51,592 bases of DNA from the NCBI GenBank assembly GCA_026981985.1, contig JALSHZ010000107.1:1-51592 (forward strand), written 5' to 3'. Made by a program: the position numbers and the translations under genes. Below the pieces are notes generated by a model that was not told where the DNA came from, did no database searches, and saw nothing but the letters and a program-made list of their open reading frames with translations. Below are positions 24,509 through 41,061 of this stretch, piece after piece. Position 1 is the first letter of the stretch, and each line of letters starts with the position of its first letter. The stretch is from Gammaproteobacteria bacterium (GTDB lineage Bacteria > Pseudomonadota > Gammaproteobacteria > UWMA-0217).

Positions 24509-27388
24509 ATGAAACATTGGGTAAAGATTTCCGTATTGCTGTTCTCCAGTCAGCTTGCATTGATGGGGCAGCTCATGGCCGCCGAGGATGGCGCTGCCGC
24601 AACGCCAGCAGATGGCGCGGGTGATGCAGCGGCCGCACCCGCGGTGCCGGCAGCAGACCCGGCAGCGGCTGGTGATGCTGCGGCTCCCGTGGATGCTTGT
24701 CCAGATGACAAGGCAGCGTTGGTGGCGTTATACGACAACCTGGGTGGTGAAAATTGGAAAAAAGGTGGTCCCACCGATAACGATATCAACCTCCGTTGGG
24801 TCACGGGGCCTAATCACTGCGATTGGTTCGGCATTGAATGTGATGCCTCGGGTAAGGTCATTTCTGTCGATTTGAACGCCAACAAGCTCAAGGGAGCGAT
24901 GCCTGAGGCGCTGGGAGATCTTGGTTGTCTGACAACCTTGAACCTCGATGACAACAGCATTGGCGGCGAGATCCCTGCTGCAGTCACTAAGTTGACTGCA
25001 CTTGAACGGTTGTCGCTGGATGCCAACAAGATTCAGGGCGATATCCCCTCCGGCCTCGCGGACATGACAAAGCTGACAAGCATCGATCTAGACTACAATG
25101 CATTGCATGTAGCTAACGACGCGGCGGCGGGCGTCGCAACGTCGCTTGAACAGAAGCACGGCAGCAACTTCCTCGAAACCCAGACGCTGGACGCGCAAAA
25201 CGTCAAAGTTGTCGCGCGTACCCGTACTTCCCTGACCCTCGAATGGGATCAGGTGACTTTCACGCCGGAAGGTGGGTATCGCATCTATATCTCTGATAGC
25301 TACGATGGCCCATTTACGCATCATGCAGCCATCAGTGGTACCGGTGTTGATACCGCCAAGGGAGAAGTCGTCGGCAAGGCGAACACCACTGCCGTTGTCG
25401 AAGGTCTGGAGCCGGGCAAGAAGTATTACTTCGTCGTTCATAGTTTTACCAATCCGCATGACGACAACCGCAATGAGGTGGAGAGCGACGGTCAGACTGG
25501 CACGCCGGCGCTTGGTATCACTGACAGCGACGATTCCGATCTCGATGGGCTGAAGAATGCGGAGGAAGCTGCGATTGGGACTGATCCGAACAACCCGGAT
25601 TCCGATCGTGACGGCATCTTCGACCGTCAGGAGGCAGATCCGCTGAATCCTGCGAACACAGACAAGGATGCGCTAATTGACGCACTGGATCCGGACGATG
25701 ACAACGACAACGTCCCCACCCGTCAGGAAGTGATTATTCCGGAAGATCCGGGTCAGAGTGCAACCTTCAAGGATACGGATGGCGACAAGACGCCCGATCA
25801 TCTCGATGCCGATGACGATGGCGATGGTGTGCCAACAAAAATTGAGACCACCAACGCGGCAGGTGATGTGGATCTGGCGCTTGACACCGACGGTGATGGC
25901 ACCCCCAACTACCTCGATACCGATGACGATGGCGATGGCATCTCCACCTTTGATGAGACCAATGGTGGCAAGGACATCAACAAGGATTCTGATGATGATG
26001 GCATCCCGGACTATCTCGACAACAAGAACGACAAGGTCGCCGTACTGGAAGACACGGCGGATCTGGTCGACACATCTATTGGTGGCGGCTCGATGAGTCT
26101 GGGTATCGCTGCTGCTGGTCTGCTTGGTGTGTTGCGGCGCCGGCGTCGTCTTGCCATCACTGCGGCTGCCATCACGCCACTGCTCATGCTCAGTGGTATG
26201 GCTGGGGCTGATGAGAAGGCCGTCGACGAAGCCAAGGCAGCAGCCCAGCAAGAGCTGGACAAGGCCAAGGCCAAGGGCAAGGTTGAAAAGAAAGCATCCG
26301 GAGCGACTGCGGCAAAAAAGCCTGGTCTCAAGGATGAGAAAATCGATTTCAAGGTAACGCAAGCGCAGCCTGAACGTGGTGGTCGTATCTACCTGGGTCT
26401 TGGTGCCGGTCTCACGACCTTGCAGCCCGAACCGAAGACGCCAGGGGTTACGGTCAGTGATGACAACAGTACTGGATACAAATTCCTGTTCGGCTACGAA
26501 GCTACAGACCATTTGGCGATCGAGGCCATGGTCGGCGCATTGGGTGAAGCGACATTGTCGCCTAGCGATAAGACGGTCGACTACAAGGTCGGTTCGTTGT
26601 TTGCACTGTACAACTTGTTTGATTACCGGGTCGGCTTGAATCCGATCGTCAAGGTCGGTGTCTCGTCGATCCAGAACAGCAGCGACACTGGTATCGACTT
26701 GAACGAGATCGATGACACGACGCTATCGGCAGGTGTTGGTTTGGAATATGAATTCGGCAATGGTTTCGTGATTCGTGGTGAATACGAGTACTACTCCGAG
26801 GATGCACAAATGGCATCCATCAATGTGCTCAAGCGCATGGGCGGTGAAGCGCCCATCGTCATTCCTGCGCCGGCGCCTGAACCGGTCGTCGTGCCGCCCC
26901 CCGCACCTGCGGTCATTCCTGCGCCCAGTGTCAAGGTCGAATTCAAGATCCCTGATACAGATGGTGATGGTGTCAACGATATCCGCGATGCTTGTCCGAA
27001 TACACCAGCTGGCGCTGAGGTTGATGAAGTGGGTTGCGCCAAGTTCCAAGGCGTACTCAAAGGCGTCAATTTTGAATACAACTCTTCGCGATTGACGCCG
27101 CGTGCGCGGGCAATTCTTGAAGAAGTCGCCGCCGAGCTGAAGAACTATCCGAACGTGAAAGTTCAGGTTGAGGCGCACACCGACAGCAAGGGTTCCTCAG
27201 GATACAATCTGTGGCTGTCAAAAGCGCGTGCGCAGAGCGTCATCGATTTTCTCGTGTCACGTGGCATCTCCGCCCGGCGTTTGATTCCGATTGGCTTTGG
27301 TGAAACCAAGCCAATCGCTTCGAATAAGACCGATGCTGGTCGCGCATTGAACCGGCGGGTCGAGTTCAAGGTGCTGTCACCGCGGTAA
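24509..27388 (+). CDS. LRR/TSP3 surface protein fused to OmpA-type barrel, internal sorting-signal junction
   Basis: 959 residues from the ATG at 24509 (MKHWVKISVLLF, a good signal peptide ending near LMAA-ED). Domains: Ala/Pro-rich linker (about 27-62); plant-type leucine-rich repeats with N-cap (65-205; NWKKGG, CDWFGIEC, LNLDDNSIGGEIP); fibronectin III (231-330); calcium-binding thrombospondin-3 repeats (339-507). Then GGGSMSLGIAAAGLLGVL and RRRRR at 525-547, which looks like a GlyGly-CTERM sorting tail, yet translation continues into a second signal-peptide-like segment (548-567, possible cleavage AGA-DE), an Ala/Lys linker, an eight-strand-like OmpA barrel (about 625-790), one TSP3 motif (DTDGDGVNDIRDACPN) and an OmpA C-terminal peptidoglycan-binding domain (about 846-959). 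Each domain call is good; the processing of the junction is inferred. Confidence 0.85.
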   Translation: MKHWVKISVLLFSSQLALMGQLMAAEDGAAATPADGAGDAAAAPAVPAADPAAAGDAAAPVDACPDDKAALVALYDNLGGENWKKGGPTDNDINLRWVTGPNHCDWFGIECDASGKVISVDLNANKLKGAMPEALGDLGCLTTLNLDDNSIGGEIPAAVTKLTALERLSLDANKIQGDIPSGLADMTKLTSIDLDYNALHVANDAAAGVATSLEQKHGSNFLETQTLDAQNVKVVARTRTSLTLEWDQVTFTPEGGYRIYISDSYDGPFTHHAAISGTGVDTAKGEVVGKANTTAVVEGLEPGKKYYFVVHSFTNPHDDNRNEVESDGQTGTPALGITDSDDSDLDGLKNAEEAAIGTDPNNPDSDRDGIFDRQEADPLNPANTDKDALIDALDPDDDNDNVPTRQEVIIPEDPGQSATFKDTDGDKTPDHLDADDDGDGVPTKIETTNAAGDVDLALDTDGDGTPNYLDTDDDGDGISTFDETNGGKDINKDSDDDGIPDYLDNKNDKVAVLEDTADLVDTSIGGGSMSLGIAAAGLLGVLRRRRRLAITAAAITPLLMLSGMAGADEKAVDEAKAAAQQELDKAKAKGKVEKKASGATAAKKPGLKDEKIDFKVTQAQPERGGRIYLGLGAGLTTLQPEPKTPGVTVSDDNSTGYKFLFGYEATDHLAIEAMVGALGEATLSPSDKTVDYKVGSLFALYNLFDYRVGLNPIVKVGVSSIQNSSDTGIDLNEIDDTTLSAGVGLEYEFGNGFVIRGEYEYYSEDAQMASINVLKRMGGEAPIVIPAPAPEPVVVPPPAPAVIPAPSVKVEFKIPDTDGDGVNDIRDACPNTPAGAEVDEVGCAKFQGVLKGVNFEYNSSRLTPRARAILEEVAAELKNYPNVKVQVEAHTDSKGSSGYNLWLSKARAQSVIDFLVSRGISARRLIPIGFGETKPIASNKTDAGRALNRRVEFKVLSPR

Positions 27389-27464: not shown

Positions 27465-28109
27465 TTAGCGCCCCAGGCTTGCATATATCCTGTTACTGTC
27501 GATGAACAGGCGAGTGTCATCGGTTCTGGTGGCAACGGATACATCGTTTCTTCGTATTAGTTTGCCGCCTTTCTTTTCAGCGCCAAAAGCACGGATGATG
27601 CCTGTCAGAACGTGTTGTCCATTTTCGCAACTGAGGAGTCCGCCCCCCGATTGACCGAAGTTCACAGGCGCAGAGGTGTAGATCAATCGGTTTGCCACTG
27701 CACGGAACTTGCCCTTGCCTGTTTTCAACCGTTTGCCGAAGGCGTAGCCGATGGCCCAGACTGGGGTTTTCGTGTCCAGGGCGCTGCGTCGTAGCGGCAA
27801 TGGCGCGATACCGTCGGTGTCGACAGCCAGCAGGGCCAGGTCGATGGTGGTGTCCCGGGCGATCAGATGGGCGGGGCGGGGCCGTTGCTGAACGATGACA
27901 TCGATGGTGTCCATCCCTTCGACCACATGCGCGGCTGTCAATACCAGTCCGGGGGCAACGACGACGCCGCTCCCGGCTGTCGTTTCGCCTTCGATCTTTA
28001 CGATCCCTGCTTTGGTTTGACGATCAGGGGGGCTGCACTGGGCGGTGGCGATGACAGGAGACGATAGCGCGACTACGATTAGTATCGGGAATAGTTTGGC
28101 GAAAAACAT
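27465..28109 (-). CDS. Exported trypsin-like serine protease
   Basis: 214 residues with a signal peptide (cleaved near ATA-QC). Single chymotrypsin-fold domain: His in VLTAAHVVEG, Asp in TTIDLALLAVD, Ser in NFGQSGGGLLS. No PDZ domain is present, so it is shorter than DegP/DegS. Two cysteines (QCSPPDRQ and LLSCENG) may pair in the periplasm. It is convergent with the LRR-OmpA fusion. Whether it processes that protein is open; proximity is the only hint. Confidence 0.88.
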   Translation of the reverse strand: MFFAKLFPILIVVALSSPVIATAQCSPPDRQTKAGIVKIEGETTAGSGVVVAPGLVLTAAHVVEGMDTIDVIVQQRPRPAHLIARDTTIDLALLAVDTDGIAPLPLRRSALDTKTPVWAIGYAFGKRLKTGKGKFRAVANRLIYTSAPVNFGQSGGGLLSCENGQHVLTGIIRAFGAEKKGGKLIRRNDVSVATRTDDTRLFIDSNRIYASLGR

Positions 28110-31511: not shown

Positions 31512-34500
31512 ATGGCGAATCAATCGTCTTCCAGCGCATATATTACCGATGGGTCTGGAGCCAAATCCATTTTCAAGGGAAGAATCCCCGCACTCGCGTT
31601 GGTGCTGGCGGGGGTTGTCTATGCGGGCCAAGGCCTGGCCGCTGGCTGTCCTGCAAATACAGTGCCTGATGGCAAGAATCTCATCGTCAATGGCAATTTC
31701 TTCAATCAGCCTGCAGGGCCTTATCCCATTCCAGCAAAAACTGATCTTGGTGGCTGGGAAGCGGATGTGCCTTTCAATGGGATTGGCTATGCGCCGGATA
31801 CCACGGTCACGATCGTAGTCGGCGAGCTTGATGACGGCGGGCCTATCTCCCAGATCCCTTTTCCGGGCGATGCGGATAACAACGTACCAGCGACGCCAAC
31901 ATGGCTTTACTCCAATGGTAACGACAAGGCCACCTCCCGCGTGATCTGGCGGCAGACGGTTACGGGGCTCACGCCAGGCAAGGACTATGTGTTCTACGGC
32001 TATTACAGCAATGTCATCAGTCCTGAGACGACGGACCCCTATGTGGAACCGATCATGAATTTCGGGGTGGATGGCGAGAGTATCGGCACGATTACCGCAC
32101 TCAATCACAGCAACTTGCTGTCCGGTGATGGCGGCGAGGATGTCTGGAAGCGTTTCGAATTCAAGATTACGCCGACCAAGGATTCGGCAGTGCTGACCAT
32201 TGCTGATGATGTCGTCAACGAAATTGGTGGTGACGACCTGGCGATTACGGCAATTGGCATCGAATCCTGTAAAACAACACTCGCTGGCCCTGATATTTCC
32301 GCAGACAAGACCAGCCTGATATTCACTGGTGTCGTCGCGGCCACCAGCGAGCCGCAGGTTATTACCGTGACCAATGAGGGTGAGTTGGATTTGAATATCA
32401 CCAAGGTGGCACTGGCGGGCTTGAACCCCGCGGACTACGCGATCAGCAAGAACAGCTGCACCGCTGCTGTGGCGCCAAAAGGGACTTGCACGATCGAAGT
32501 TGTTTTCAAGCCGACGGTGATTGGCAGCCGCGTGGCTGAAGTGCAGGTTTCATCGAATGATGCTGACACCCCGGTGCTGAAAGTTCCGCTGGCGGGCACG
32601 GCTACGGCGATACCGCTGGGCAGTGTCGATGTGGAGCCTGTTGCGGTGGTTTTCCCGACGACTGAAGCGGGTAAGAGCAGTAAAGCCGAGACGATCACCG
32701 TAACTAATACCGGGGCGGCAGATATCACCATCAACGATGTGGTGCTTGCGCCAACCGATGCAGAATTCACCATGGATGCCACGGCCTGCGCCAAGGGTAC
32801 CACGCTGAAGCCAAAAGCCAGTTGTGATATCACGGTTACCTTCGAGCCGACCAGTGCCGGGTCGAAGAGTGCTACGGTAACTGTGGCTTCGGATGACAAG
32901 GACAAGCCTGCTGTCAATGTGGCGCTGACGGGGCTTGCGACACCTTCCGCGACGGCCGATATCGCGTTCCCTGACAAAGATCTTCTGGCCAAAGGCATGT
33001 CTTTTGGCGAGCTGCTTGTTCAGACGACCAGCAAGCCGCAGACCTTCAAGATCAAGAATGCCGGTGGCGCGCCGCTGACGATCAGCGACATCAGTGTCTC
33101 GGATCCGCAGTTCAAGGCCGATACCACCGACTGTCTGGCGACACCGGTTGCAGCCGGCGAGGAATGTGAGGTTGAAGTGACCTTCTCACCGACGAAGGTG
33201 GGCCCGCAAACAGCGATTCTGAGCATTGTCTCCAATGATGTCGACGAGAGCCCGGTACCCGTACTGCTGACAGGAACTGGCCTGACCGATGACAAGGACA
33301 GCGATGGTGACGGCCTGACGGATGAAACCGAGGCACGCATGTGTACGGATCCGAACAACCCGGATACCGATGCCGATGGCCTGCCCGATGGCATCGAGGA
33401 CGAAAACAAGAATGGCCGCGTCGATCGCGATGTCAGCGGTGCTTTCCTGGAGACAGATCCTTGTGTCAAGGATACGGATGGCGACGGCATCATCGACGGT
33501 GTCGAGGACGCGGATCATGACGGCAAGGTGCTCAAAGATGGCGCTGCGTTCAAGGAGACTGATCCGCGGATCGTCGACACCGACGGTGACGGCCTGACAG
33601 ACGGCATCGAGGATGCCAACAAGAATGGCGTCTACGACAAGCCTGCCGAGACCGACCCGCGCGTTGTCGATACCGATGGTGATGGCATCAGCGATGGTAT
33701 TGAGGACGTCAATCGCAATGGCGTCATCGATGCTGGCGAAACCGACCCACGGGTACCGAATAAAACCGAAGTGCTCGGTGAAACCGAAACGGCTGCTGGC
33801 CCGGTACTGACCGACCTGGAAGGTGGTGTCGGTGGTGGCGCTGCTGGCTTGCCTCTGCTCAGTCTACTGGGTGCGGGCATGCTGTTTCGTCGCAGAAAGG
33901 TAGCCGCCGCAGTGGCGGCTACCGTCGCCGGTGCTGCGTTGATCGCAGCACCCGTGCAGGCGAAGGAAGGGCAGTTCTACCTCGGTCTCGGTGTCGGTCA
34001 GTCTTATATCGAGCCTGACCCCGATACCAACAACACGGGCTACAACGTCGATGAGGACACAGACTTCGGTGGCAAGATCTTCCTTGGCTATGATCTGACC
34101 GATTTCTGGTCGATCGAAGGCTTCTATGCCGATCTTGGCGCATCCGAACTGAGCCATGCGACGAAGGCGGATGGGGAGATCGATTACAAGGCCTATGGCC
34201 TGGAGACTCTGCTCCACCTGCCCAACACCAAGCCGGGCTTTTCCGGTTTTCTGAAGCTGGGTCTGGGCAAGATGAAGACTGATAGTGATACGATCCCGTT
34301 TGAGGATCTTGAGAACGGCCAGTTGTTCGGTGGTGTCGGTCTCGAATATCAATTCGAGTCAACGGTGTCGCTGCGAGGTGAATATCAATACTTCGATGAA
34401 GATGCCCAGCTGATCACGCTGAACGTGCTCAAGCGTTTTGGTGGCGAAAAGCCCGTGCCTGTCGTCGTGGAGCCGGTCGATACCGATGGTGACGGAGTCA

Positions 34501-35168
34501 TCGACGAAAAGGATAAATGCCCCGGCACGCCAGCGGGCACCCGCGTGGATGTCACCGGCTGTGCAATCGACAGCGATAACGATGGTATCGTCGATTCCCG
34601 CGACAAGTGTCCGAATACGCCGGAAGGTGTTCGCGTTGACGCAACGGGCTGTCAGTTCGTCGTCGAAGTGGCGATCGATTCTGACTCCGACGGCGTGATC
34701 GATGAGCACGACAAGTGCCCGGATACGCTGCAAGGCATCAAGGTCGATTCGAACGGTTGTCCGTTCGTGACTCAAGAAGTCATCGACCAGTTCACTGGCG
34801 TGCTCGAAGGGGTGAACTTCCACACCAATTCAGCCCGTCTCACCGGCGAAGCGATGAGCATTCTCAATGGTGTCGCGCATCAGCTTGCTGAGCATCCAGA
34901 GGTCAACGTGATCATTGTTGGCCACACGGACAGCATTGGCCCGGCGGATCGTAACCGCGCTCTGTCGCTAGAGCGAGCCAAGTCGGTGGCACGTTATCTC
35001 GTCAGCCGCGGTATCGAGCGCAGCCGTCTGAAGTACGCCGGCAAGGGCGAAGATGAGCCCATCGCCTCCAACGCGACTGCGGCAGGACGCGCGAAGAACC
35101 GCCGCGTTGAGTTCATTGTTGAACATGATGGATATGACGGTGGTTACGGCGCTTCCAATCGTTACTGA
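31512..35168 (+). CDS. Choice-of-anchor-D/TSP3 surface protein fused to OmpA-type barrel, internal sorting-signal junction
   Basis: 1218 residues, with GAGGAG ahead of the ATG. A long N-region leads to a signal sequence (IPALALVLAGVVYAGQGLAA, 25-44). Then a DUF642/carbohydrate-binding-like domain (45-258; NLIVNGNFFNQPAG), three choice-of-anchor-D/ASH-type Ig repeats (about 261-365, 372-475, 482-590; each ends CxxxVTFxP...), and TSP3 calcium repeats (593-755). At 771-796 comes GGVGGGAAGLPLLSLLGAGM plus LFRRRK, a GlyGly-CTERM-like tail, followed directly by a second signal-like segment (797-817; LIAAPVQA, cleavage before KEG), an OmpA barrel (820-975), three TSP3 motifs (986-1083) and an OmpA C-terminal domain (about 1090-1210; NFHTNSARL, GHTDSIG, NRRVEF). 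An in-frame ATG (33879, M790) just before RRRK could also start a separate OmpA protein. Confidence 0.85.
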   Translation: MANQSSSSAYITDGSGAKSIFKGRIPALALVLAGVVYAGQGLAAGCPANTVPDGKNLIVNGNFFNQPAGPYPIPAKTDLGGWEADVPFNGIGYAPDTTVTIVVGELDDGGPISQIPFPGDADNNVPATPTWLYSNGNDKATSRVIWRQTVTGLTPGKDYVFYGYYSNVISPETTDPYVEPIMNFGVDGESIGTITALNHSNLLSGDGGEDVWKRFEFKITPTKDSAVLTIADDVVNEIGGDDLAITAIGIESCKTTLAGPDISADKTSLIFTGVVAATSEPQVITVTNEGELDLNITKVALAGLNPADYAISKNSCTAAVAPKGTCTIEVVFKPTVIGSRVAEVQVSSNDADTPVLKVPLAGTATAIPLGSVDVEPVAVVFPTTEAGKSSKAETITVTNTGAADITINDVVLAPTDAEFTMDATACAKGTTLKPKASCDITVTFEPTSAGSKSATVTVASDDKDKPAVNVALTGLATPSATADIAFPDKDLLAKGMSFGELLVQTTSKPQTFKIKNAGGAPLTISDISVSDPQFKADTTDCLATPVAAGEECEVEVTFSPTKVGPQTAILSIVSNDVDESPVPVLLTGTGLTDDKDSDGDGLTDETEARMCTDPNNPDTDADGLPDGIEDENKNGRVDRDVSGAFLETDPCVKDTDGDGIIDGVEDADHDGKVLKDGAAFKETDPRIVDTDGDGLTDGIEDANKNGVYDKPAETDPRVVDTDGDGISDGIEDVNRNGVIDAGETDPRVPNKTEVLGETETAAGPVLTDLEGGVGGGAAGLPLLSLLGAGMLFRRRKVAAAVAATVAGAALIAAPVQAKEGQFYLGLGVGQSYIEPDPDTNNTGYNVDEDTDFGGKIFLGYDLTDFWSIEGFYADLGASELSHATKADGEIDYKAYGLETLLHLPNTKPGFSGFLKLGLGKMKTDSDTIPFEDLENGQLFGGVGLEYQFESTVSLRGEYQYFDEDAQLITLNVLKRFGGEKPVPVVVEPVDTDGDGVIDEKDKCPGTPAGTRVDVTGCAIDSDNDGIVDSRDKCPNTPEGVRVDATGCQFVVEVAIDSDSDGVIDEHDKCPDTLQGIKVDSNGCPFVTQEVIDQFTGVLEGVNFHTNSARLTGEAMSILNGVAHQLAEHPEVNVIIVGHTDSIGPADRNRALSLERAKSVARYLVSRGIERSRLKYAGKGEDEPIASNATAAGRAKNRRVEFIVEHDGYDGGYGASNRY

Positions 35169-38515: not shown

Positions 38516-39598
38516 TTATTCTTCCTTGATCTCGAACTCGACCCGCCGATTCAATTGGCGGCCTGCCGCTGTCGTGTTGTCGGCGATCGGATGCTGCTTG
38601 CCATGGCTTATGCGCTCCAGACGCTGTGCGTTGATACCCCGGTCGATGAGGGCGTTGGCTGCGGCGTTGGCCCGTTTCAGGCCGAGTGCCTGATTGTAGC
38701 GTTCTGAGCCTTCTGCATCGGTATGTCCGTGGACGCGCAGTTCGATATCCTGGTGTGCCTTGAGTTCGGCGGCGACGTGATCGAGTTTCTGCTCAGCAGC
38801 AGCTGAGAGTTCATATCGGTCGAACTCGAACAGGATGGTCGGCAATGTTAGGCTGGTTGTGGGCGCCGGCGGTGGCTCGGGTGTGAGCGGCGGCATTGTG
38901 GGGGTGACCGCTGCAACGGGTGCTGGTGCCTTGCTTGTGCGTGGTGTATGCGAACGTCCGAACCGCTTGATCAGGCCGATCGAAAACGCTTTGGCATCCT
39001 CGTCGAAAGAGATGAACTCGATACGCGCGGCAAAACCATTCGACCAGCCGTATTCCAGGCCGGCACCAAGATGCAGATCCCAGTCCTTGCGTTGGCGATG
39101 GATGATATTGGCGGAGGAGGTATCGAGCTTGCCGATGCCGATGCGACCAAAGAATGACAGGCCTTCGCGTCGATAGTAGCCCTCGTCATCAGGATAGCCG
39201 GGATAGTCGCTGCCAGAGCGGGAGTTGAACAGATAGCCAATCGCGCTGACCCCACCGTACTTGTAGTCGATTTCTCCCGCGTGACTCCGGGAGGTCTCGT
39301 CAGCAATACCTGCCTCGCCGAGCCTCGAGTAGAAACCCTCGACGCTCAGTCGTTTGCTGAGATCGAACCCGAGTGTGAGCGTCGCCCCGGTGCTACTGTC
39401 ATCGTCCTGGATGAACCCGGTATCACGTGTGTCGGGTTCGAGTGTCGACGCAGAGAGACCGCCGCCAAGATAGAGCCGCTGAGGGAAATCTCTGGCTGCC
39501 GCCATCTCGGCAGCCAGCAGCGGTGTAGCAATACTGGCTGCAATGCAGCTGGACAGCACCAGTCTTTGCAAGCAGGGTTTATGGTGGCGAATGTTCAT
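38516..39598 (-). CDS. OmpA-family outer-membrane protein (unfused paralogue)
   Basis: 360 residues. Signal peptide of about 30 residues (LVLSSCIAASIATPLLAA-E). An OmpA-like barrel (about 37-210) shares the pattern YLGxGxxxxxLEP, SVEGFYSRLGEA, GEIDYKYGG and GAGLEYGW...FDEDA...LIKRFGR with the two large fusions, so the three barrels are paralogues. Pro-rich linker (about 215-250), no TSP3 repeats, and an OmpA C-terminal domain (FEFDRYELSAAAEQKL; GHTDAEGSERYNQALGLKRA; NRRVEFEI) that binds peptidoglycan. Its ATG overlaps the stop of the upstream gene (ATGA), so translation is probably coupled. Confidence 0.92.
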   Translation of the reverse strand: MNIRHHKPCLQRLVLSSCIAASIATPLLAAEMAAARDFPQRLYLGGGLSASTLEPDTRDTGFIQDDDSSTGATLTLGFDLSKRLSVEGFYSRLGEAGIADETSRSHAGEIDYKYGGVSAIGYLFNSRSGSDYPGYPDDEGYYRREGLSFFGRIGIGKLDTSSANIIHRQRKDWDLHLGAGLEYGWSNGFAARIEFISFDEDAKAFSIGLIKRFGRSHTPRTSKAPAPVAAVTPTMPPLTPEPPPAPTTSLTLPTILFEFDRYELSAAAEQKLDHVAAELKAHQDIELRVHGHTDAEGSERYNQALGLKRANAAANALIDRGINAQRLERISHGKQHPIADNTTAAGRQLNRRVEFEIKEE

Positions 39599-41061
39599 TG
39601 CTGCGCCCTCGTTGCCAGGCGGTGTCGGCGCAGACCGACAAGCGCCAATGGGGCCAGCAGCCAGCCCAGGCTCCCTGCACCATGTCCTTGCAGTCCGGTT
39701 TCGATCAGCCGCTGAGCCGACCCGGTATCGGCGAGTACGGCAGTTGGTGTCGGTGTTGATGCGGGTATTCTGGTTCCTGGCAGTGGTGTCACGGTGATCT
39801 GGATACGTGCTTCGCTGCTACCACCATTGCCGTCGCTGATTTGGTAGATCAGGAAGTCGTCGCCGCTGAAACCGGTATCGGAGGTGTATCTGATCACCTC
39901 GCCAATGACCGTAGCGGTACCATGCGCTGGCGGCTTGCTAATGGTCAGCTGCAGCGGATCGTTTTCGGGATCGCTGTCGTTGCTCAGTGGCGCGATGTCG
40001 ACAGGCTCACCCGTGTTGGCAGTGGCGTTGTCCGGTTGCGCAAGCGGTGGCTGGTTGATGGGCGCCAATTGCAGATTGCCGCCGGTGCCCAAATGGAAAT
40101 CTGCATCATCGATGTCATTGTGCGAGCTGGTGTCGCGGGGGAATGTTTCCGGGGCGGTCAGATCGTGCTGATCTGGATCGATGTCTTTCGCGAATGCCGA
40201 AATGCCATAGTATTTTTGTCCGGGTGCAATGCCGAGGTCGAGCAGTGAAACGAATGCAAAGCCGAGTGCTTCCGGTTGTGAGCTGCGTGCGACCATGAAT
40301 CCGTTGGGTGACTTGCTGCTATTGGAAAGAAAGTCGTTCAGGGTGTAGATGTTGGTGATGCCGTACTGAACCTTCGTGGTGTCGGCATAGCCGCTTTCGT
40401 GGATCCGGACGAGTGGGCCATACGCGTCCGGTTGGCCATCGGCGCCCAGCGACAGTATTGCGGCGATCTGGATCGGGTTGTTACCGCTTTTTTCCAGCAC
40501 GGTGTGTCCAGCGAGCGCCAGTTCGCTGGAGGGTGCGATGATTCCCTGGCTATAGATCAGGTCGACGCGCTCGATATTCTTGTGTGAATAGCGCCATGGG
40601 CCGGCGTTGGTGAACACGTCGAGCGCACCAATATTGGCGACATTGCCGGCAATGATCTCCGCCAGTGGGCAGTCTCCAGGGGTGCCCGGCAGCGTGGCCT
40701 GGTATTGCCGGGCTGTGCCAGCCGTTTCCGCATAGATAGCGCAGGGCTCTCCAGTGGCATTGGGATTATCGATGCGGACGATCTGAACTCGATCAGGCTG
40801 AATGGGGTTGTACGCAAGCGTTTGATCCTGGTAGACGAATGATTCGATCTTGAGATCGACACCCAGACCCCAGCGATAGCTGCTGTCGTCGACAATATAG
40901 CTTGAAGGGACTGCTGGCACCGAGGTGGTATTGACGAGAGAAACCTCTCCGCGTGCCATTGCGCTGCCTACCGGTGCGGCTGTGGCTGCCACGAGAATTA
41001 GTGTCCGCAGTATTTTGCCGTATCGGTGCTGTTTCAACGGAGGCGTGTACGAATTGTTCAT
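39595..41061 (-). CDS. Exported cadherin-like/Big-type surface protein with GlyGly-CTERM-like tail
   Basis: 488 residues with a signal peptide (LRTLILVAATAAPVGSAMA-RG). Residues about 35-325 are an unassigned beta-rich domain (ESFVYQDQTLAYNPIQPDRVQ; WRYSHKNIERVDLIYSQGII). Residues about 338-425 are an Ig/cadherin-like repeat (PPLAQPDNATANTGEPVDI ... DDFLIYQISDGNGGSSEA). The C-terminus GAGSLGWLLAPLALVGLRRHR followed by eight residues has the Gly-rich/hydrophobic/Arg arrangement of GlyGly-CTERM sorting signals, which are cleaved by rhombosortase in known systems. The next gene, overlapping by 4 bp, encodes the OmpA partner. Confidence 0.8.
   Translation of the reverse strand: MNNSYTPPLKQHRYGKILRTLILVAATAAPVGSAMARGEVSLVNTTSVPAVPSSYIVDDSSYRWGLGVDLKIESFVYQDQTLAYNPIQPDRVQIVRIDNPNATGEPCAIYAETAGTARQYQATLPGTPGDCPLAEIIAGNVANIGALDVFTNAGPWRYSHKNIERVDLIYSQGIIAPSSELALAGHTVLEKSGNNPIQIAAILSLGADGQPDAYGPLVRIHESGYADTTKVQYGITNIYTLNDFLSNSSKSPNGFMVARSSQPEALGFAFVSLLDLGIAPGQKYYGISAFAKDIDPDQHDLTAPETFPRDTSSHNDIDDADFHLGTGGNLQLAPINQPPLAQPDNATANTGEPVDIAPLSNDSDPENDPLQLTISKPPAHGTATVIGEVIRYTSDTGFSGDDFLIYQISDGNGGSSEARIQITVTPLPGTRIPASTPTPTAVLADTGSAQRLIETGLQGHGAGSLGWLLAPLALVGLRRHRLATRAQQ

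Follow-up and report, generated by a model that had tools for sequence, protein, structure and literature searches.

The ORF at 24509-27388 carries a sorting tag of GlyGly-CTERM-like build in mid-protein, followed by a second signal peptide and an OmpA-type barrel, and the question it raises is whether this single frame yields one protein or two. The window analyzed, 51,592 nucleotides in length, is contig JALSHZ010000107.1 of a gammaproteobacterial assembly (GCA_026981985.1). A preliminary description of this DNA had read the ORF as a polyprotein, i.e., an exported LRR/Fn3/TSP3 protein and an outer-membrane barrel made in a 1:1 ratio and separated during or after export. That reading was supported, most strongly by relatives in which two overlapping genes encode the same products and by the many switches between the fused and the two-gene (split) states.

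Domain organization of the fused ORF

The fused ORF was comprised of 959 codons on the + strand, beginning with an ATG at 24509 and ending with a stop at 27386-27388; the frame was open throughout. The N-terminal signal peptide (residues 1-25, MKHWVKISVLLFSSQLALMGQLMAA, 24509-24583) was recognized from its sequence and hydrophobic segment, with a presumed cleavage point at its end. The passenger (24584-26080) contained plant-type LRR (about residues 93-199), fn3 (230-315), and TSP3-like acidic repeats (about 340-505), all identified with Pfam. Plant LRR receptor ectodomains were the PDB sequence matches of the passenger, and a Foldseek search with the 959-aa model returned both these ectodomains and OmpA structures.

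The internal sorting tag, GGGSMSLGIAAAGLLGVLRRRRR, occupied residues 525-547 (26081-26149) according to exact position mapping and profile scores, with GGGSMSL starting at residue 525 (nt 26081) and RRRRR at residue 543 (nt 26135). A second transmembrane segment followed the tag. This segment, LAITAAAITPLLMLSGMAGA (residues 548-567, 26150-26209), is a putative signal peptide with a predicted signal peptidase I site, AGA|DE, at residues 565-567, which agrees with the cleavage near residue 567 proposed earlier. The 959-aa ORF had hydrophobic segments close to its N-terminus and at the junction but none elsewhere, in keeping with the GlyGly-CTERM definition, which calls for an N-terminal signal peptide and allows no further transmembrane segment between it and the tag.

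Downstream of the second signal peptide were a charged helical linker (residues 568-625, 26210-26383) and an eight-stranded outer-membrane beta-barrel with strands within residues 626-777 (26384-26854), the latter identified by Pfam (OMP_b-brl, 622-764), AlphaFold2, and Foldseek. A TSP3 repeat, PDTDGDGVNDIRDACPNTPAGAEVDEVGC (26951-27037; weak Pfam match, sequence), lay between the barrel and the OmpA peptidoglycan-binding domain (residues 855-949, 27071-27355; Pfam E 1.7e-23, Foldseek). The eight-stranded barrel together with the OmpA domain places this half in the OmpA family. Thus the single frame with an internal tag, a second signal, and an OmpA protein, as first described, was confirmed to the residue by ORF check, Pfam, and position mapping. 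The AlphaFold2 model of the whole protein reproduced the eight strands and the OmpA fold and showed weak helices at 532-544 and 546-560 (pLDDT below 50); its pTM was 0.32, confidence being low around the junction as well as between domains, and it was uninformative on topology. A Trypsin_2-type serine protease gene (27465-28109, - strand) adjoined the fused ORF in convergent orientation.

Identity and conservation of the internal tag

The Gly-rich, hydrophobic, Arg5 build that had been noted at residues 525-547 was borne out. Cut out at Arg547, the tag scored 15.2 bits against TIGR03501 (GlyGly-CTERM), just below the cut-off of 15.5, and 17.8 bits against TIGR03382 (MYXO-CTERM; cut-off 15.85). 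No Cys occurred in residues 520-547, i.e., the invariant Cys of MYXO-CTERM and JDVT-CTERM was absent there. The tag was followed by 412 residues and was therefore not at the extreme C-terminus, the location that defines GlyGly-CTERM. The preliminary description had placed such tags at the extreme C-terminus. Internal tags of this general type have a precedent in MXAN_5598, which has an internal MYXO-CTERM tag (PMC11980579).

Because the generic GlyGly-CTERM model recovered few of these tags genome-wide, a fixed detector and an alignment profile of our own were used. The detector fired in 0/620 random internal windows and in 17/453 unrelated C-termini, where true tags may account for some of the hits. 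Both a tripartite tag and a second signal peptide were found in each of the 37 related barrel ORFs that extend upstream in frame by 250 residues or more (31 tags called by the detector and six by eye).

A full-length orthologue (74%) with the same junction was present in the same-genus genome G002 (L102/L009). Between the window species and G002, dN was 0.147 and dS 0.99 for the tag, and 0.23 and 1.28, respectively, for the second signal; neither a frameshift nor a stop was found at the junction in this comparison. Comparison of these two congeneric species shows the junction to be under purifying selection. Fusion was also seen in two more members of the clade, L203 and L181, which carried the motif TTSMGGGSMG. 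Stand-alone LRR/fn3/TSP3 paralogues with terminal Gly-rich/RRR tags and no fused barrel were seen at L093 (G000 C52), L107 (G002 C152), and L076 (G004 C23).

The arrangement was not unique to 24509-27388. A second fused ORF of 1218 aa (31512-35168, + strand) contained a passenger, the tag GGVGGGAAGLPLLSLLGAGMLFRRRK, a second signal peptide, a barrel, TSP3, and OmpA. Its passenger was comprised of VesB/HYDIN-like Ig and TSP3 regions, with three Ig-type stretches matching a HYDIN/CFA65/VesB-like model. The window also held an unfused version on the - strand: an Ig/cadherin-like passenger (39595-41061) with a terminal GlyGly-CTERM tail above the TIGR03501 cut-off, and a barrel-OmpA partner (38516-39598) whose ATG overlapped the upstream stop by 4 bp (ATGA). 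The window genome and four relatives contained several fused and several split versions.

Fused and split states among relatives

A search profile (A1) built from 18 fused junctions plus barrels, and hence from fused proteins themselves, matched 39 of 369 genomes of the class, spread over 21 families. An order-level search gave no genomes beyond those of the family. Matches in a phylum-level sample never fell outside the class, and those in genomes other than the window's own were all weaker. Among 93 non-redundant barrels, 38 were fused to a tagged passenger and 34 lay behind a separate, often overlapping, tag-ended gene; these labels rest on a home-made detector plus inspection of draft genomes. 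The detector alone called 32 fused and 31 split, and inspection added L075, L216, L228, L230, L233, and L181 to the fused set and L097, L207, and L227 to the split set. Three further fused ORFs (L248, L251, and L234) were found outside the 93-barrel set.

An assembly error, or a recent pseudogene-like fusion of two genes, would also give a single frame, and the draft genome to which the window belongs consists of 149 contigs. Against this, the same fusion occurred in G002, L203, L181, and many paralogues, and fused ORFs were found in Alcanivorax sp. 1008 (L025) and in a 3.35-Mb genome assembled as one contig (L248). The error at 26081-26210 that the preliminary description had named as fatal to its reading is excluded by this recurrence of the junction in independent genomes, including the one-contig genome, and this origin of the fused ORF is extremely improbable.

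In 13 of the 31 detector-called split pairs the second gene began at position -4 from the upstream stop, and in eight split pairs it was in frame with the first. In one in-frame pair (L072 4037-5144 and its upstream gene; G004 C16), nothing but one TAG and 12 nt lay between the two genes; the pair is one substitution from fusion. At least 15 changes between the fused and split states were counted on an IQ-TREE tree of the barrel plus OmpA domain, and 14 on a quick tree of the barrels. Sisters with 100/100 support differed in state in three cases: L177 (fused) and L178 (split), of the same genus; L192 (fused) and L198 (split), of the same genus; and L221 (fused) and L201 (split), of the same genome. 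Such interchange is what one would predict if processing of the fused product gave the two proteins that split genes encode separately. The repeated switches and the differing sisters therefore imply that the single ORF has to supply what is otherwise supplied by two genes. As overlapping gene pairs give rise to the same two parts in relatives, it is almost certain that the long product is divided into a matched pair.

Two proteins could also arise if the OmpA half were translated, additionally or mainly, from an internal start; the fusion would then be translational noise superimposed on what is in essence a two-gene arrangement. Upstream of the second signal, Met529 provides an in-frame ATG, accompanied by a weak SD-like match of 4 nt, and split relatives begin near this position. 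Among relatives, SD plus ATG was present at the junction in 17/34 split pairs vs. 4/37 fused ORFs, i.e., it was mostly lost in the fused forms. The junction was conserved as protein. No stop interrupts the upstream frame, and ribosomes translating the passenger therefore all read on. An internal start is thus very unlikely here, and the same estimate applies to its specific candidates, the ATG of Met529 or a GTG/TTG just before the arginines. As a general mechanism a separate internal start was rejected, the signals being mostly absent from fused forms.

In 30/32 fused ORFs the second signal was followed by the first barrel strand after only 3-29 residues. To be inserted into the outer membrane, a barrel has to part from the inner membrane. 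With so short a linker, an outer-membrane barrel would be too close to remain joined to an inner-membrane helix. Geometry demands cleavage for most members; the linker of the window protein, like that of its orthologous group, is longer, and it is charged and helical. That the protein works uncut, as one chain across inner membrane, periplasm, and outer membrane, agrees with the single open frame. It is, however, highly improbable, as the linkers of most relatives cannot bridge the periplasm and the two-gene equivalents yield separate proteins.

Rhombosortase, MrtJ, and type II secretion

The rhombosortase gene predicted by the polyprotein reading was found, as were conserved junctions in homologues (see above). 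The window genome encoded one rhombosortase, which carried GLSG and NSH motifs of the rhomboid type and scored 144 bits vs. a family cut-off of 84; an E. coli control genome gave no match above that cut-off. The window genome also encoded a type II secretin (590 bits). MrtJ gave no match in the window genome. All five family genomes contained a rhombosortase above cut-off. Across the class, rhombosortase was found in 38/39 barrel-positive genomes vs. 89/330 others (Fisher p = 1e-18, with kinship handled by family counts only), and its co-occurrence with the barrel held across all 21 families.

The sole barrel genome without rhombosortase (G104) had MrtJ and a Cys-containing tag, which scored 26.9 bits against JDVT-CTERM (cut-off 27). 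Altogether, 16/16 Cys-type (JDVT-type) tandems, 13 found by pattern and three (L179, L207, and L213) by eye, were in MrtJ-positive genomes. The mrtJ gene closely followed the barrel gene, in the same orientation, in 11 genomes: G214, G080, G046, G308, G314, G319, G067, G186, G181, G260, and G148. Where mrtJ lay directly downstream of a barrel-OmpA gene, there was mostly an apparent cassette of JDVT passenger, barrel, and MrtJ. Such cassettes were seen in genomes of the class at L175, L179, L184, L190, L191, L194, L183, and L213. At L231 (G260 C6) and L232 (G148 C45), mrtJ was downstream of a barrel-OmpA gene with no tagged passenger upstream; the upstream gene there resembles a delta-aminolevulinate dehydratase, judged from sequence alone.

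These patterns bear on whether the tag is cut at all. A cut by signal peptidase would by itself suffice to free the barrel, leaving the tag as a relic or plain stop-transfer anchor and the passenger as an inner-membrane two-helix hairpin; the tag score marginally below the GlyGly-CTERM cut-off fits such a relic. Yet the tag was kept in every fused relative, is under purifying selection, and was kept as well by unfused and stand-alone paralogues. Its co-occurrence with rhombosortase or MrtJ was near-perfect, with the tag type matching the enzyme. Cleavage of the second signal peptide only is therefore unlikely.

A proposed two-cut polyprotein model

The 959-aa product is probably a polyprotein, cut by both signal peptidase and rhombosortase into a surface adhesin and a peptidoglycan-bound barrel. 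In the topology that we infer, the passenger would be exported by Sec until the GlyGly-type segment stopped transfer, its five arginines staying in the cytoplasm, and the hydrophobic segment after the tag, serving the OmpA half as its signal peptide, would re-initiate export. Signal peptidase I would cut after residue 567 and release the OmpA protein, which would fold into the outer membrane and bind peptidoglycan. Rhombosortase would cut at the Gly-rich motif (about residues 525-527). By analogy with VesB, the passenger may then be joined to lipid and carried, lipid-linked, to the cell surface by the type II system. The end products would be a 1:1 pair of an adhesin-like surface protein and a peptidoglycan-anchored barrel, possibly forming a complex that works like TraA/TraB.

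When VesB of Vibrio is processed by rhombosortase, its second Gly becomes exposed; this residue then receives a glycerophosphoethanolamine-containing group, and the type II system delivers VesB to the surface (PMC6219818). Translocation across the outer membrane by the type II machinery required an additional secretion signal, the VesB Ig fold (PMC13393428). The Ig stretches of the second fused ORF (31512-35168) are of this fold, the one linked to secretion of VesB by the type II system. The 959-aa ORF shares with VesB-type GlyGly-CTERM substrates the Gly-rich/hydrophobic/basic tag and the presence of rhombosortase and type II genes in the genome (PMC3237569, PMC6219818), but its tag is internal, with another signal peptide and another protein downstream of it. 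In the literature surveyed, rhombosortase has been shown to act on C-terminal tags only; in the 959-aa ORF a second transmembrane segment comes after the tag, which speaks against the model.

Relation to known systems

The closest precedent is MXAN_5598 of Myxococcus xanthus, a single ORF comprised of an adhesin-like region, an internal MYXO-CTERM tag, an outer-membrane barrel, and an OmpA domain. It was read as a fusion of genes whose product undergoes processing at the internal tag, the N-terminal part being proposed to become surface-anchored (PMC11980579). Its layout is the same as that of 24509-27388; it differs in having an invariant Cys and a CPBP-type MrtX, and it is a single example from another phylum. 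The present set has a GlyGly-type tag, rhombosortase, dozens of fusions, and repeated fused/split switches. Given MXAN_5598, the polyprotein idea is therefore not categorically new.

TraA (MYXO-CTERM) and TraB (barrel, TSP3, OmpA) are encoded by ORFs that overlap by four bases, and the proteins colocalise 1:1 (PMC3325183, PMC12045341). Here too a tag-bearing surface protein was coupled to a barrel-TSP3-OmpA partner, and two-gene versions overlapped by 4 bp. TraA/TraB differ in being two genes with a MYXO-CTERM tag, and kin recognition and membrane exchange are traits of TraAB, whereas the present proteins are known from sequence. Membership in TraB proper was rejected, as the TraB model (NF033763) aligned with the 959-aa ORF in the TSP3/OmpA part only, scoring 112 bits vs. 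a cut-off of 700. A MYXO-CTERM-like protein followed by an OmpA-type gene, resembling TraA/TraB, was seen in Polyangium (L017 776-5471) and in a member of the Myxococcales (L029 1475-8365).

With the JDVT-CTERM/MrtJ system (NF033191/NF033192), the common element is the barrel family, which in other Gammaproteobacteria is paired with or fused to JDVT-tagged proteins; the window genome differs in its lack of an MrtJ match and of a tag Cys. Processing of a non-C-terminal tripartite tag also has a parallel in a Haloferax ArtA substrate, as cited in PMC11980579, though that case involves an archaeon and an archaeosortase. As the barrel partner was seen with GlyGly-, JDVT-, and MYXO-CTERM-type tags, there is one partner architecture with three tag systems.

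The original GlyGly-CTERM paper mentions neither OmpA nor internal tags, and a literature search for bacterial signal-peptidase polyproteins gave viral cases only. No report of this arrangement with GlyGly-CTERM or JDVT-CTERM was found in the literature surveyed, which covered JDVT-CTERM and ArtA incompletely. The GlyGly and JDVT versions, the breadth, the repeated fusion, and the matching of tag and enzyme appear to be new.

A broader reading would be a general bacterial strategy, in which unrelated proteases (rhombosortase, MrtJ, MrtX) split adhesin-barrel polyproteins at internal tags into 1:1 TraAB-like complexes; in Gammaproteobacteria, these would mediate recognition between cells or contact between outer membranes, comparable to the outer-membrane exchange of myxobacteria. 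This is speculative and, in our estimate, rather doubtful. The same-genus pairs of fused and split loci offer a natural comparison for 1:1 supply and processing in vivo. If the polyprotein reading is true, rhombosortase (and MrtJ) would be polyprotein-processing enzymes and not merely C-terminal trimmers, and a peptidoglycan-bound OmpA-type barrel would be a partner for surface proteins whose anchoring was seen as lipid only. TraAB-like pairs would then occur across at least 21 gammaproteobacterial families, as one architecture served by three sorting tags.
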